A stretch of DNA of 64,000 nucleotides from Myxococcales bacterium (lineage in GTDB: Bacteria > Myxococcota_A > Polyangia > Fen-1088): the NCBI GenBank assembly GCA_003142855.1, contig PLNW01000077.1, positions 1 through 64,000 on the forward strand, given 5' to 3'. Shown here piece by piece: positions 27,653 through 32,529 of this stretch; positions within the stretch are counted from its first letter, which is position 1; each line of letters starts with the position of its first letter. The position numbers were made by a program, and so were the translations under genes. The notes below the pieces were generated by a model. It saw nothing but the letters and a program-made list of their open reading frames with translations, did not search any database and was not told the origin of the DNA.

Positions 27653-28909
27653 TCAGCAGGATAGACGGTCCCTTTCGAACCGGACTGCTTCGCGGAGAGC
27701 GGCTGCCAGCTCCTCGGCCCAGGATCTCTGCTCGTCCGGACCAGAACACTTTTCCAGTCGTATCAGGATCTCCCCGAGGTTCTCGCGAACGGGGTGCGTG
27801 GAGTCGAAGAGGATTGACATTGCAAGCCTGGTCTCTCTTTTCAGCCGCTGGGACGACGCTCTCACCTCAGCGACATAGTTGAGAATCTCCGGCCGTTCTG
27901 GGGTCAACTCGGATAGCTCCTCGGCCTCAGAAGCCAGGTCACGAATGGCACCTAGACGGGCAAGTTCTCTGAGCGACTCGGGCACAGCCTGCCGCGGTAG
28001 TTCTCCTACCGGATAGACCTGCGCAATTCCCACATCGAATGGCTGAGAGTTGAAAGCGCCGGTGAACGTGCCGTCTTGGTTGAGCACGATATCACCGTTC
28101 CGGATGTCGCAAACGAAGCGGAGGACTCGTTCCGCAAGATCACGGTCTGCTTTCGGAATGCCCAGCTTCCTGCACTGCACCTCGATACCACGCGGCCGTT
28201 CCCACCAAGAACGCTCGTAGCCGCTGTGAAAATGGGTCCCTTGACTCCAGCTACCGTCATACTGAACGTAGTAGGCTGTGACACTCCACGAGACATAGGC
28301 GCTCTTCAGGAGATCCTCCAGCAGCAGGAAGCCTCGGGGCAGGCGCCAGACTACTCCAGGTTGTTTGAGGGTGATGCCCTCGTAGAAGCCCTCAGGCAAA
28401 GCAGTAGCTTCGCTCAACGCGCGCACACAGCCAAGCGGCGGCGCGACAACCGACGGCTGTTCAGTGAGTTTGCGATAGAGCGCCTCGTACCCCGACTCTT
28501 CATCCAACACATAGTGCGTTGCCCTTCGCAGAAAGACAGGAATGCAGGGCAACTCGGAACGATTGAACGCGACAGGGATGAACTTGAGATTCCGCCCTTT
28601 GTCATCGTAGATCGCTTGGGTTATCAACTGAGATTCCCAGGCAACCCCATGGCCGGGGCCTGGCAACGCGATCCCCGCCAGACGCTCCTGGTAGCCCCGC
28701 GAGACGACCACAAGCACAAACGTGGATCGTTCGATCTGCTCCGCGGTCCATTGCGGCCACCCGTACGCCGGCGTCTCTACGTATTGGTCTATGGTGCAAT
28801 CGACATCTTCCCTTCTCAGCCGGTCAGAAAGCTCCCTCACCTTTGCCTTGTGTTCACGCGAGTCATGCGAATAGCTTATGAAGATGCGGACGCCGGGCGA
28901 TTCTTCCAT
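27653..28909 (-). CDS. SEFIR-domain protein
   Basis: A 418-residue protein. The N-terminal SEFIR/TIR-like domain (about 8-145) reads VRIFISYSHDSREHKAKVRELSDRL, STFVLVVVSRGY, GHGVAWESQLITQAIY and FIPVAFNRSELPCIPVFL. SEFIR domains are relatives of TIR domains. Some bacterial members are NAD-consuming and are linked to phage defence. The C-terminal 270 residues have no family I can name; the fragments SAYVSWSVTAYYVQYDGSW and WERPRGIEVQCRKLGIPKADRDLAE suggest a sensor or effector module. No TIR/SEFIR partner gene is adjacent; the nearest accessory gene is the toxin-antitoxin pair. Confidence 0.8.
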   Translation of the reverse strand: MEESPGVRIFISYSHDSREHKAKVRELSDRLRREDVDCTIDQYVETPAYGWPQWTAEQIERSTFVLVVVSRGYQERLAGIALPGPGHGVAWESQLITQAIYDDKGRNLKFIPVAFNRSELPCIPVFLRRATHYVLDEESGYEALYRKLTEQPSVVAPPLGCVRALSEATALPEGFYEGITLKQPGVVWRLPRGFLLLEDLLKSAYVSWSVTAYYVQYDGSWSQGTHFHSGYERSWWERPRGIEVQCRKLGIPKADRDLAERVLRFVCDIRNGDIVLNQDGTFTGAFNSQPFDVGIAQVYPVGELPRQAVPESLRELARLGAIRDLASEAEELSELTPERPEILNYVAEVRASSQRLKRETRLAMSILFDSTHPVRENLGEILIRLEKCSGPDEQRSWAEELAAALREAVRFERDRLSC

Positions 28910-29038: not shown

Positions 29039-30718
29039 TCAGCGCACCTCCCCTGCACCCGCGCTCAGCTCCCGGTCCAGCGCCTTGCACGCCGCGGCCA
29101 GCGACGCCTTGACGATGTCGCAGTCGCGGCCAGCGCCGAAACGGATCTTCCCGTCTCGGCCACGCAGGCCCACGTAGGCCACGGCTTCGGCATCGGCGCC
29201 GTCGCCCAGGGCATGTTCACTGTAGTCGACCAAATGGACGTCCACGCCCAATGCAGTGGCAAAGCCGTGCACAAAGCCGTCAATGGGGCCGGTGCCCTGG
29301 CCTTCCACGCTCACTGGTTTTTCTCCATCAGTCAATCGTGCACGCACCACGCACGCGCCTTCGCGCGGGTGGTCCACTGCAAAGTCCACCACGTCGAAAC
29401 GGCCGACTGACAGGTACTCGCGCTCGAATGCCTGCAGGATGGCATTTGCGCTCAGCTCTTTGCCGGTCGCATCTGCCATCCTCTGCACCACCTGACTGAA
29501 TTCCACGGCCATGCCCTTGGGCACGCGATAACCGTGGCTCTGCTCCAAGACATAGGCCACGCCGCCCTTGCCGGACTGACTGTTGATGCGGATCAAGGGC
29601 TCGTATTGTCGGCCTACGTCCGCTGGATCAATGGGCAAGTACGGCACTTCCCATATGGTCGCGCCGGTCTTCTCCAGCGCAGCCAATCCCTTGCGAATGG
29701 CGTCCTGGTGCGAGCCGGAAAAGGCGGTGAACACCAGCTCACCGGCGTAGGGATGCCGCGGCGGCACGGGCAATTGGTTACACTGCTGGAAGACCTCGAC
29801 CAAGGCCGGCAGGTCCGACAAGTCCAGTTGCGGATCAATGCCCTGGCTGAACAGATTCATGGCCAGCGCCACCACGTCCGCATTGCCGGTGCGCTCGCCA
29901 TTGCCAAACAAGGTGCCTTCCACTCGCTCGGCACCCGCCAGCATGGCCAGCTCGGCCGCGGCGATGGCGCAGCCTCGGTCATTGTGCGTGTGCACGCTGA
30001 TGATCGTGCAGTCCCGCTGCGCCAGGTGCCGGTGCATCCACTCAATCTGGTCGGCGTACACATTGGGCGAGGACATCTCGACCGTGGCGGGCAAGTTGAC
30101 GATCATCTTCTTGTCGCGCGTGGGTTGCCATTCGTCGGCCACGGCGTCGCACACTTGCACGGCAAATTCCAATTCAGTGCCAGTGAAGCTCTCGGGCGAG
30201 TATTCCAGCACGATCTCGCTTTCCGCCAGTTTGGTCGCCTCTTGCCGCGCCTGGCGCACGCCGCGTACCGCGATCTCCTTCACAGCCGCTTGATCCATCC
30301 CGAACACCACCCGGCGCTGCACCGTCGAGGTCGAGTTGTACACATGCACGATGGCGCGGCGTACGCCTTGCAGGGCTTGAAAGGTACGCGCGATCAAGTG
30401 CTCGCGCGCCTGGGTCAGCACCTGGATGGTCACGTCAGCAGGAATGTGGTTCTTTTCAATCAGCGCGCGCACGAAGTCGAATTCGGTCTGCGAAGCCGCG
30501 GGAAAGCCCACTTCGATTTCCTTGAAGCCCACGCGCACCAGGGCCTGGAAGAATCGCAGCTTGCGCTCCATACCCATGGGCTCGGCCAGGGCCTGATTCC
30601 CGTCGCGCAGATCCACGCTGCACCAGATGGGTGCGTGGTCCAGGGTGCGGCCAGGCCAGGCGCGGTCAGGCAGACGCACCGATGGCGCTGAAGGGTATTT
30701 GCGAGCATCGAATGTCAT
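29039..30718 (-). CDS. leuA: 2-isopropylmalate synthase
   Basis: LeuA, the first committed enzyme of leucine synthesis (acetyl-CoA plus 2-ketoisovalerate), 559 residues as in the longer (LeuA2-like) type. The ATG at 30718 has GGAG six bases upstream. SVDLRDGNQAL (residues 35-43) carries metal ligands, and EVGFPAASQTEF, HTHNDRGCA (near 244) and NGERTGNADVV complete the active site. The C-terminal ~130 residues form the leucine-binding regulatory domain. It is preceded by a leucine-rich leader and terminator, so transcription is probably attenuated by leucine supply. The rpiA gene lies upstream on the same strand. Confidence 0.94.
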   Translation of the reverse strand: MTFDARKYPSAPSVRLPDRAWPGRTLDHAPIWCSVDLRDGNQALAEPMGMERKLRFFQALVRVGFKEIEVGFPAASQTEFDFVRALIEKNHIPADVTIQVLTQAREHLIARTFQALQGVRRAIVHVYNSTSTVQRRVVFGMDQAAVKEIAVRGVRQARQEATKLAESEIVLEYSPESFTGTELEFAVQVCDAVADEWQPTRDKKMIVNLPATVEMSSPNVYADQIEWMHRHLAQRDCTIISVHTHNDRGCAIAAAELAMLAGAERVEGTLFGNGERTGNADVVALAMNLFSQGIDPQLDLSDLPALVEVFQQCNQLPVPPRHPYAGELVFTAFSGSHQDAIRKGLAALEKTGATIWEVPYLPIDPADVGRQYEPLIRINSQSGKGGVAYVLEQSHGYRVPKGMAVEFSQVVQRMADATGKELSANAILQAFEREYLSVGRFDVVDFAVDHPREGACVVRARLTDGEKPVSVEGQGTGPIDGFVHGFATALGVDVHLVDYSEHALGDGADAEAVAYVGLRGRDGKIRFGAGRDCDIVKASLAAACKALDRELSAGAGEVR

Positions 30719-30773
30719 GTCAGTCTCCAGGCCCCGCTTCCGCCGGAGATGGCCACGGTCCTTCGCAGATACG

Positions 30774-30804
30774 AAAAACCCCCTCCGGCTTCCGCGGGAG
30801 AGGG
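30774..30804 (-). terminator. Attenuator terminator upstream of leuA
   Basis: On the minus strand an 8-bp stem, CCCTCTCC (30797-30804) with GGAGGGGG (30779-30786), includes one U·G pair. The loop is 10 bases, and the stem is followed by TTTTTCG. It lies about 60 bases before leuA's ATG and after the leader stop, so it would end transcription when translation of the leader proceeds freely. The 5' arm overlaps the antiterminator partner. Confidence 0.75.
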
Positions 30805-30849
30805 TTTCGAGGTTCGTCGTTCTGCGCCTTACCTCAGGCCTCTCCCGCG
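30793..30849 (-). promoter_or_regulatory. leuA antiterminator pairing arms
   Basis: CGCGGGAGAGG within the leader-peptide end (minus strand, 30839-30849) is a perfect 11-base complement of CCTCTCCCGCG (30793-30803), the 5' side of the terminator. Formation of this pair would block the terminator. A ribosome stalled at the leucine codons upstream would leave the first arm free to pair. A smaller hairpin, GCTGC-TTA-GCAGC, overlaps the leader codons and could act as the pause hairpin. Confidence 0.7.
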
Positions 30850-30896
30850 CTGCTAAGCAGCAGTCCCGAGAGAAGCAGAGTGGTCGCAAACAACAT
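30834..30896 (-). CDS. leuL: leuA leader peptide, leucine-rich
   Basis: A short frame of 20 codons plus TGA begins at ATG 30896. Seven codons are leucine: one TTG, then CTG CTT CTC, then CTG CTG CTT, arranged as two blocks (LLL..LLL) around a Ser-Gly. The peptide begins MLFATT and ends SSAGEA. It has no good ribosome site; a TTGACG -35-like box at 30931-30936 would put the transcript start close to the ATG, so it may be near-leaderless. Its end overlaps the antiterminator arm, the layout of amino-acid attenuators. Confidence 0.75.
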   Translation of the reverse strand: MLFATTLLLSGLLLSSAGEA

Positions 30897-30970
30897 GGCC
30901 AGCCCCAACAGTGTGCGAAAGCCGGCCGCCCGTCAAGAACAATTGGCCGCGCCGGCAGCTGCCACGCTTG

Positions 30971-31681
30971 TCAGGCTTTGCGTACAAGCGTCCGGACGCA
31001 CATGCCGTCGGAGACACCGACCAGAACCTTGGCGGCAAGATCGAAGAATAGCCCGGTCTCGACGACACCGGGTGTACGGTGCAGGCGGGCATCGACTTCG
31101 CGAAGGTCGACGTCGGGGCCGAACTTGGCGTCGATGACCAGCTGGCCGTTGTCAGTCACCAGCGGACCGTCCTTGTTGACGCCCATCCGTAGCCGCGGCT
31201 GTCCGCCCAGACGTGTCACCACTTCGGTGACGTAGCCAATGGCCGGAACGGTGACTTCAATGGGGATGGCGACGGTGGATCCCAGTCGGGGAACCAGCTT
31301 GCTCTCGTCCACGATGACCACGAACTGGCTGGCCATGCTGGCCACCAGCTTCTCCATGGTGTGGGCCGCCCCGCCGCCTTTCGTGACGTTGAGGTCGGGG
31401 TCGACCTCGTCGGCGCCGTCGACCGCCAAGTCGATCGCCCGGCAATCCTGAGCATCGCGCAGGGGAATGCCGTTTTGTTGGCACAGGATGCGCGTCTGGA
31501 AAGATGTGGGAACGCCGGCGATGCGAAGTCCCTCGTCCCTCATCCTTCGGCCGACCTCTTCTATGAAAAAATGAGCCGTCGAACCGGTACCCATCCCGCA
31601 CACCATCCCGTCGGAAACGAGCTTTGCGGCAGCACAGCCAGCCAACTGCTTGAGGGCATCGTTGCTCTTGCTGCTCTTCAT
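30971..31681 (-). CDS. rpiA: Ribose-5-phosphate isomerase A
   Basis: A 236-residue RpiA, converting ribose-5-phosphate and ribulose-5-phosphate in the pentose phosphate pathway. The phosphate loop GTGSTA is at 31-36. DLAVDGADEVDPD holds the catalytic acid, and NVTKGGGAAHTMEKLVA holds the Lys-Gly-Gly-Gly motif. The C-terminal MCVRTLVRKA is slightly shorter than in E. coli but complete. It lies 75 bases upstream of the leuA leader on the same strand, so a readthrough transcript is possible. Confidence 0.94.
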   Translation of the reverse strand: MKSSKSNDALKQLAGCAAAKLVSDGMVCGMGTGSTAHFFIEEVGRRMRDEGLRIAGVPTSFQTRILCQQNGIPLRDAQDCRAIDLAVDGADEVDPDLNVTKGGGAAHTMEKLVASMASQFVVIVDESKLVPRLGSTVAIPIEVTVPAIGYVTEVVTRLGGQPRLRMGVNKDGPLVTDNGQLVIDAKFGPDVDLREVDARLHRTPGVVETGLFFDLAAKVLVGVSDGMCVRTLVRKA

Positions 31682-31755: not shown

Positions 31756-32529
31756 CTAGCTCGCGCAGCGGACGCGAAGGCCAGAAAGCTCGTCGAAGAA
31801 CCTGGCCGTGGTGTCGATGCTGTTCTCCAGCGACTCCACGATGAGCGTCATGAGTCCATCGTTTTCGTGGCGCAGGACCTCGTAGTAACGCTGCCGATCG
31901 ATGGAATGGACCACAGCGGGCACATATCCATTCCGCAGAAGGATGTAGTTGGTCAGAAGACGCGCCACCTTGCCTGAATTGCGAGTCCAGGGGTAGGCCT
32001 GCAGCAAGCGGAACTGAATCTTCACACATTGCACGACGGCGTGCATGCGAGTGAACTCATCCGAATCCAACCATTCCGCGAGCTTGCGCATCTTGTACCC
32101 TATCTTCTCGGGCGGAACGATCTCGTGGTAGTAGAGGCGGTGGAGCGGGTTCTCCTTGCGATAGGGACAGCCCTTGGGTACGGCGTCGGGCGTGACCATC
32201 GCGTAGAGCTTGCGGATGAAATCCAGGTCCACGGCCGGGGCCTTCTTTGACCGCGCGGTTTCGCGGATGAAGTCGACCGCCGTTTTGTGGTTCTTCACCT
32301 CTTCGTACATCGGGATGAGAGACACGTCGCTGATGATCCGCTGGTCGATGGCGGCCTTCAGCTCCGAGTAGGAAAGCACAACACCCTCCAAGGCGTTGTC
32401 GTGAAAGATCCACGAGACGTCGAGCTTGCTCTCGTAGTCCTTCTTCAACCGGTCTGGAAATCCTCCGACCTTCGCGCGGAGTGCATCCATCTTGGCGTCC
32501 AGCTCGAACAACCTAGCTTCCATTGGCAA
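31756..32529 (-). CDS. Fic-fold protein with altered catalytic motif
   Basis: A 257-residue protein with a Fic-like helical core (SWIFHDNALEGVVLSYSELKAAI, PYRKENPLHRLYYHEI, MHAVVQCVKIQFRLLQAY). The active loop, normally HPFx(D/E)GN(G/K)Rxx R, reads YPWTRNSGKVAR (179-190): the catalytic His is Tyr179, and the GN pair is changed. The FHDNALEG stretch near residue 42 resembles the (S/T)xxxE(G/N) inhibitory segment. AMP transfer by the standard mechanism is unlikely, though another nucleotide-transfer or binding role is possible. It is a single gene. Confidence 0.75.
   Translation of the reverse strand: MPMEARLFELDAKMDALRAKVGGFPDRLKKDYESKLDVSWIFHDNALEGVVLSYSELKAAIDQRIISDVSLIPMYEEVKNHKTAVDFIRETARSKKAPAVDLDFIRKLYAMVTPDAVPKGCPYRKENPLHRLYYHEIVPPEKIGYKMRKLAEWLDSDEFTRMHAVVQCVKIQFRLLQAYPWTRNSGKVARLLTNYILLRNGYVPAVVHSIDRQRYYEVLRHENDGLMTLIVESLENSIDTTARFFDELSGLRVRCAS

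Follow-up and report, generated by a model that had tools for sequence, protein, structure and literature searches.

The leuA locus and its leader frame

The window, by which we mean the whole 64-kb stretch of DNA analyzed here, comes from a genome whose RpoB is 71% identical to that of Sorangium, compared with 59% for Herbaspirillum and 53% for Sulfuricurvum (tblastn). It is as close to Sorangium as most members of Sorangium's own class, which gives indirect support to a placement in the Myxococcota. Near the middle of the window, on the minus strand, a gene for 2-isopropylmalate synthase (leuA) starts at 30718. The rpiA gene, on the same strand, lies upstream with its end at 30971, and a short leucine-rich frame sits between the two. 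The genes and features are listed below.

29039 to 30718, minus strand: leuA, 2-isopropylmalate synthase; TIGR00970 above the cutoff, with a LeuA_dimer allosteric domain
30774 to 30808, minus strand: intrinsic terminator hairpin (3:4) with a U5 tract; from fold energy and covariation in 25 sequences
30793 to 30803, minus strand: region 3 (CCTCTCCCGCG; CCUCUCCCGCG), the shared arm, which can pair with region 2 or region 4; from complementarity and covariation
30834 to 30896, minus strand: leader peptide frame, MLFATTLLLSGLLLSSAGEA followed by a stop codon; 7 Leu in 20 codons, from translation
30839 to 30849, minus strand: region 2 (CGCGGGAGAGG), the 5' arm of the antiterminator, within the last codons of the leader; all 11 nt complementary to region 3, with covariation
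30867 to 30876, minus strand: region 1 (GCUUCUCUCG), mainly the first Leu block; paired with region 2 in the predicted fold
30908 to 30936, minus strand: putative promoter, with -35 TTGACG (30936 to 30931), a 17-nt spacer, and -10 CACTGT (30913 to 30908)

The neighbors of leuA and rpiA (27653 to 28909 and 31756 to 32529, both on the minus strand) encode a protein whose N terminus matches a TIR_2/SEFIR domain and a member of the Fic/DOC family.

An earlier note on this DNA had proposed a 20-codon leucine leader peptide at 30896 to 30834 on the minus strand, and the frame was confirmed. Its seven Leu codons are codons 2, 7, 8, 9, 12, 13, and 14, which form two blocks (7 to 9 and 12 to 14) plus codon 2. 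At the local Leu frequency, the chance of at least seven Leu in 20 codons is 6e-4. Of the 1,577 start codons examined in the 64 kb, just 6, at three places, open a short open reading frame (ORF) that is comparably rich in Leu.

Predicted alternative RNA structures

The terminator stem spans 30808 to 30775, with the T5 tract at 30778 to 30774, and the 5' arm of the hairpin is formed by region 3. Folding both structures was one of the checks that the earlier note had suggested. The terminator folded at -23.0 kcal/mol (z = -2.8), and 3 of 200 shuffled sequences were equally good. The antiterminator stretch, from 30860 to 30790, folded at -34.9 kcal/mol (z = -4.05), and none of 200 shuffles was equally good. 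The isolated 2:3 duplex was calculated at -25.1 kcal/mol. The U-tract terminator claimed to follow the leader is present, and the claimed 11-base complementarity between the end of the leader and the terminator 5' arm (30849 to 30839 against 30803 to 30793) is perfect.

The predicted fold also pairs 30876 to 30867 with 30847 to 30838 over ten bases and places the second Leu block in a small nested hairpin. This predicted 1:2 pairing, which was missing from the earlier note, completes the classical set of 1:2, 2:3, and 3:4 structures. A consensus promoter and terminator scan reported neither the promoter nor the terminator of the leuA leader; the probable reasons are a weak -10 box and a mismatch within the stem.

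Closer to the gene, in the predicted fold of 30750 to 30719 (minus strand), the leuA ribosome site GGAGA is able to pair with a nearby upstream UCUCC. The leuA ribosome-site region carries GTCTCC/GGAGAC in locus L089 and ATCTCC/GGAGAT in L088. A second, translational control by this pairing is conceivable.

Putative promoter and probable start of leader translation

In the window, the -10 box CACTGT, a weak match, is followed by 11 nt and then by the leader ATG. In the genus relatives, the -10 box reads CACATT. All 41 loci examined have a TTGAC box 35 to 40 nt ahead of the leader ATG, with conserved spacing, and a -10-like hexamer (mostly TAnnnn) that ends 6 to 11 nt ahead of it. By comparison, only 6 of 1,513 ATGs in the window have TTGAC at such an upstream distance. 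The usual distance from a -10 box to the transcription start site is 5 to 9 nt. With the observed spacing from -10 box to ATG, the 5' untranslated part of the leader is therefore expected to be about 0 to 6 nt long, which accounts for the lack of a ribosome site at the leader. Because the ATG follows the promoter by 6 to 11 nt in 41 of 41 loci, the leader peptide is probably read leaderless. Near-leaderless translation had been a guess in the earlier note, and the conserved promoter-to-ATG distance supports it. The fixed distance also makes a clear prediction, namely, that the leader peptides start without a ribosome site.

Conservation and covariation

Using LeuA as the query, we collected related loci, including 56 leuA loci of the phylum. 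We searched them with a generic finder that looks for a hairpin and a T-rich 3' side together with an antiterminator complement at which a Leu-rich ORF ends. Its criteria include no sequence motif, and some positive loci were already known when the thresholds were chosen. The finder was positive in 43 of the 56 loci, and 47 were recognized by eye. In the 64-kb window, it marked one place on both strands together. No hit was found in 80 leuA loci of other phyla, almost all from Proteobacteria, Actinobacteria, and Clostridia. None of 1,100 dinucleotide shuffles was positive, a control that overstates the significance because the loci are related to one another. The nine loci without a match by eye are L086, which has an assembly gap; L091 and L134, which lie on truncated contigs; L090, in which the attenuator is absent; and five members of family f39 (L092, L096, L110, L115, and L126), which have a different arrangement ahead of leuA.

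Both alternative helices covary. In 25 aligned sequences, 90% of the 2:3 pairs are standard, with 13 two-sided changes; shuffles give 3.5, and sliding the arms gives no more than 2. Over 46 loci, the 2:3 pairs have 27 two-sided changes, and slid arms reach no more than 5. The 3:4 pairs in the 25 sequences are 91.5% standard and show 27 two-sided changes, compared with 6.8 in shuffles and at most 10 when slid. The mutually exclusive pairing that the earlier note had described is borne out, with a covarying region 3 shared by the antiterminator and the terminator. In 45 of the 46 loci, folding predicts an upstream pairing of the 1:2 type that would sequester region 2. The 1:2 step is weaker than the 2:3 and 3:4 steps because its pairs show no covariation beyond that of shuffles.

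Four loci, L100, L103, L117, and L127, read region 2 in another frame (REEV instead of AGE). The RNA complementarity survives this frame change, which points to a constraint on the RNA and not on the peptide. The earlier note named as refuting evidence relatives in which the terminator persists after loss of the Leu codons or of the complementarity. The comparison did not refute it: 47 related loci keep all three parts, with compensatory changes.

Proposed mechanism and alternative explanations

Of the features by which a classical attenuator is recognized, a Leu-codon leader ORF, a terminator between the leader and leuA, and an antiterminator exclusive with that terminator are present, and a 1:2 helix is predicted. 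We conclude, with a probability of roughly 0.92, that the leuA leader is a ribosome-mediated transcription attenuator sensing leucyl-tRNA. The leader, the arms, the terminator, the covariation, and the promoter spacing can be read from the sequences and their comparison, and from them we infer leader translation, stalling, and leucine-dependent termination. Leucine attenuation, the reading that the earlier note had given to the leader and terminator, likewise gains support from the comparison of related loci.

The promoter just upstream would give an mRNA whose 5' end lies a few bases from the leader AUG. Under leucine limitation, a translating ribosome would stall at codons 7 to 9 (or 12 to 13), covering region 1 and freeing region 2. 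Region 2 would then pair with region 3, and RNA polymerase would read through into leuA. With ample leucine, it would instead reach the stop codon and cover region 2, whose end adjoins the stop. Region 3 would then pair with region 4, the terminator would form, and transcription would stop. If the leader is not translated at all, 1:2 would form and the terminator would again be allowed. Under this scheme, the cell most likely makes LeuA only under leucine shortage.

With rpiA directly upstream on the same strand, the hairpin might merely be the rpiA terminator, and the Leu-rich frame might be a product of chance in the GC-rich spacer between rpiA and leuA. This is highly improbable, and we rejected it. 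The genus relatives L087 and L088 keep the attenuator parts together, although upstream of the promoter their DNA and that of L001 are unrelated; the leader, arms, and terminator are conserved jointly across the phylum; and no similar arrangement arose in shuffles. A riboswitch or a protein-bound antiterminator, acting independently of leader translation, would fit with a conserved unpaired CUUAGC and the strongly conserved region 2, both of which can be read as a binding site. We give it hardly any credence, since the Leu codon enrichment is confined to the leader frame (a Leu fraction of 0.265 in frame versus 0.075 and 0.058 out of frame in 30 loci). Across loci, moreover, the leader keeps its frame from ATG to stop while its length varies and its indels come in codon units, as in the in-frame codon deletion of L087, and no Rfam family matches.

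It is also quite unlikely that the leader and its folds gate the leuA ribosome site as a translational leucine element, similar to the LEU element of Actinobacteria. Actinobacteria do have Leu-rich leaders ahead of leuA whose mechanism is unclear (PMC1262725), in the genus of the window a UCUCC lies upstream that can pair with GGAGA at the leuA ribosome site, and the Leu leaders of family f39, in the same phylum, lack the terminator. However, a covarying U-tract terminator and antiterminator would be needless for a purely translational device.

Two LeuA isozymes under one proposed attenuator

We ran a covariance model of the attenuator over 379 genomes of the phylum and obtained strong matches upstream of two kinds of leuA. 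The long kind is of the TIGR00970 type, as in the window, and has the LeuA_dimer allosteric domain. The short kind has about 385 residues, is closest to NF002086, and lacks the LeuA_dimer (leucine-binding) domain; it is found under the attenuator at loci L186 to L206, L208, L210, L211, and L217. Among 91 genomes of one class, 48 have the long LeuA, 28 have the short one, and none has both (Fisher p = 7e-13, uncorrected for relatedness). Families f38, f23, f39, f27, and f55 each hold both LeuA states. Because five families do so and the two kinds do not co-occur, it seems that the attenuator stayed in place through repeated exchanges of the enzyme. Alternatively, an ancestral pair of isozymes may have undergone alternate losses.

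The LeuA tree places the window protein among LeuAs of another class, apart from those of Sorangium and L090 of its own family. This grouping suggests that the window leuA may have arrived by transfer together with its attenuator. The genome bin of L002 (G000:C120) also encodes a full-length LeuA of the leuA_bact type, with no attenuator found upstream. Given the 8% contamination of the bin, this LeuA may be foreign to the organism.

These observations can be joined in a wider reading, which we offer tentatively and at slightly less than even odds. The attenuator would be a chassis portable across the phylum, a near-leaderless RNA with a Leu-coding arm, GGCGGGAGAGG, and a CCUCUCCCGCC terminator. 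Under it, the enzyme would have been swapped several times between distantly related isozymes, one of them without the leucine-binding allosteric domain, with the RNA replacing the lost feedback inhibition and a Trp-codon version controlling a major facilitator superfamily (MFS) transporter. Two LeuA isozymes with and without a leucine-binding domain under the same attenuator provide a natural test of transcriptional versus allosteric feedback replacement.

Variant leaders elsewhere in the phylum

Five covariance-model matches (L226, L227, L235, L236, and L237) have the same terminator and antiterminator design with Trp-containing leaders, which end, for example, in TAWTVWKWKVGGGAPGR or SLCLSWWKRAAGEEWPD before the stop codon. 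An MFS transporter lies downstream of these leaders in L235 to L237. Judged from sequence, this design looks like tryptophan attenuation of a transporter.

The five f39 loci and L013 (Sorangium cellulosum) have a short Leu-codon leader ahead of leuA, such as MRTETRWSLRLALTGPAA, followed by a stop codon, in L126. We looked for a U-tract terminator ahead of leuA in these loci and found none. Several of them have a GC hairpin overlapping the leader stop. In L110, 8 nt at the start of the leader are complementary to the region of the leuA ribosome site; within f39, this pairing is top scoring only in L110. The f39 and L013 leaders are possibly a translational variant.

A further conserved terminator element is seen in L228 to L234 (mostly family f27, genus g110), where GGAGGGGGACTCC lies upstream of CACGAGAACCCCTCCCGCC-loop-GGCCGGAGGGGTTCTCG. 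This element has no evident leader frame.

Comparison with known systems

The leuA attenuator had no Rfam match at the gathering threshold in a search of the 64-kb window. The Rfam leader RNAs, including the enteric Leu leader with its covariance model, gave no match at E ≤ 10 around the site, nor at E ≤ 5 in five related loci. We found no literature on leucine attenuation in Myxococcota. An earlier mention is possible in Lopatovskaya et al. 2010, reportedly a broad survey of attenuators, which PMC10272879 and PMC4833913 both cite. The best reading is that the leuA leader is a new family of a known mechanism, ribosome-mediated leucine attenuation, that is absent from Rfam. It brings classical leucine attenuation into a phylum for which we found no description and gives an RNA family outside Rfam with many natural variants.

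The enteric leuL attenuator has a leader peptide with a run of leucines, alternative 1:2, 2:3, and 3:4 structures, an intrinsic terminator, and a leucine pathway gene downstream, and the window shares this plan, with its 1:2 helix as a prediction. In contrast to leuL, the leader here is probably near-leaderless, has two Leu blocks, and contains region 2 inside its frame before the stop codon. It precedes leuA or the gene of the short LeuA isozyme, whereas leuL precedes the leuABCD operon. Leaderless trpL attenuators exist, for example, in Sinorhizobium meliloti. The latter has in common with the window a leaderless leader peptide, which for the window is a prediction, and the classical attenuation logic but differs in its Trp codons and its sequence.

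In its published description, the actinobacterial LEU element forms a pseudoknot whose base stem joins the Leu codon run and the leuA ribosome site, and the other parts of an attenuator are missing (PMC1262725). The two elements share the position upstream of leuA and a Leu-rich leader ORF. By that description, they are set apart by the terminator and antiterminator, which are present here. In Corynebacterium, attenuators of ilvB and ilvBNC and an ilvB-II motif have been reported, and according to work cited there, a C. glutamicum leader peptide is made without a ribosome binding site (PMC10272879), which is also what we predict for the window leader. Like the leader described here, the ilvB attenuators combine a short leader rich in branched-chain codons with a terminator and an antiterminator. 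They belong to a different gene and phylum and differ in sequence, and the leader in the window is rich in Leu only.
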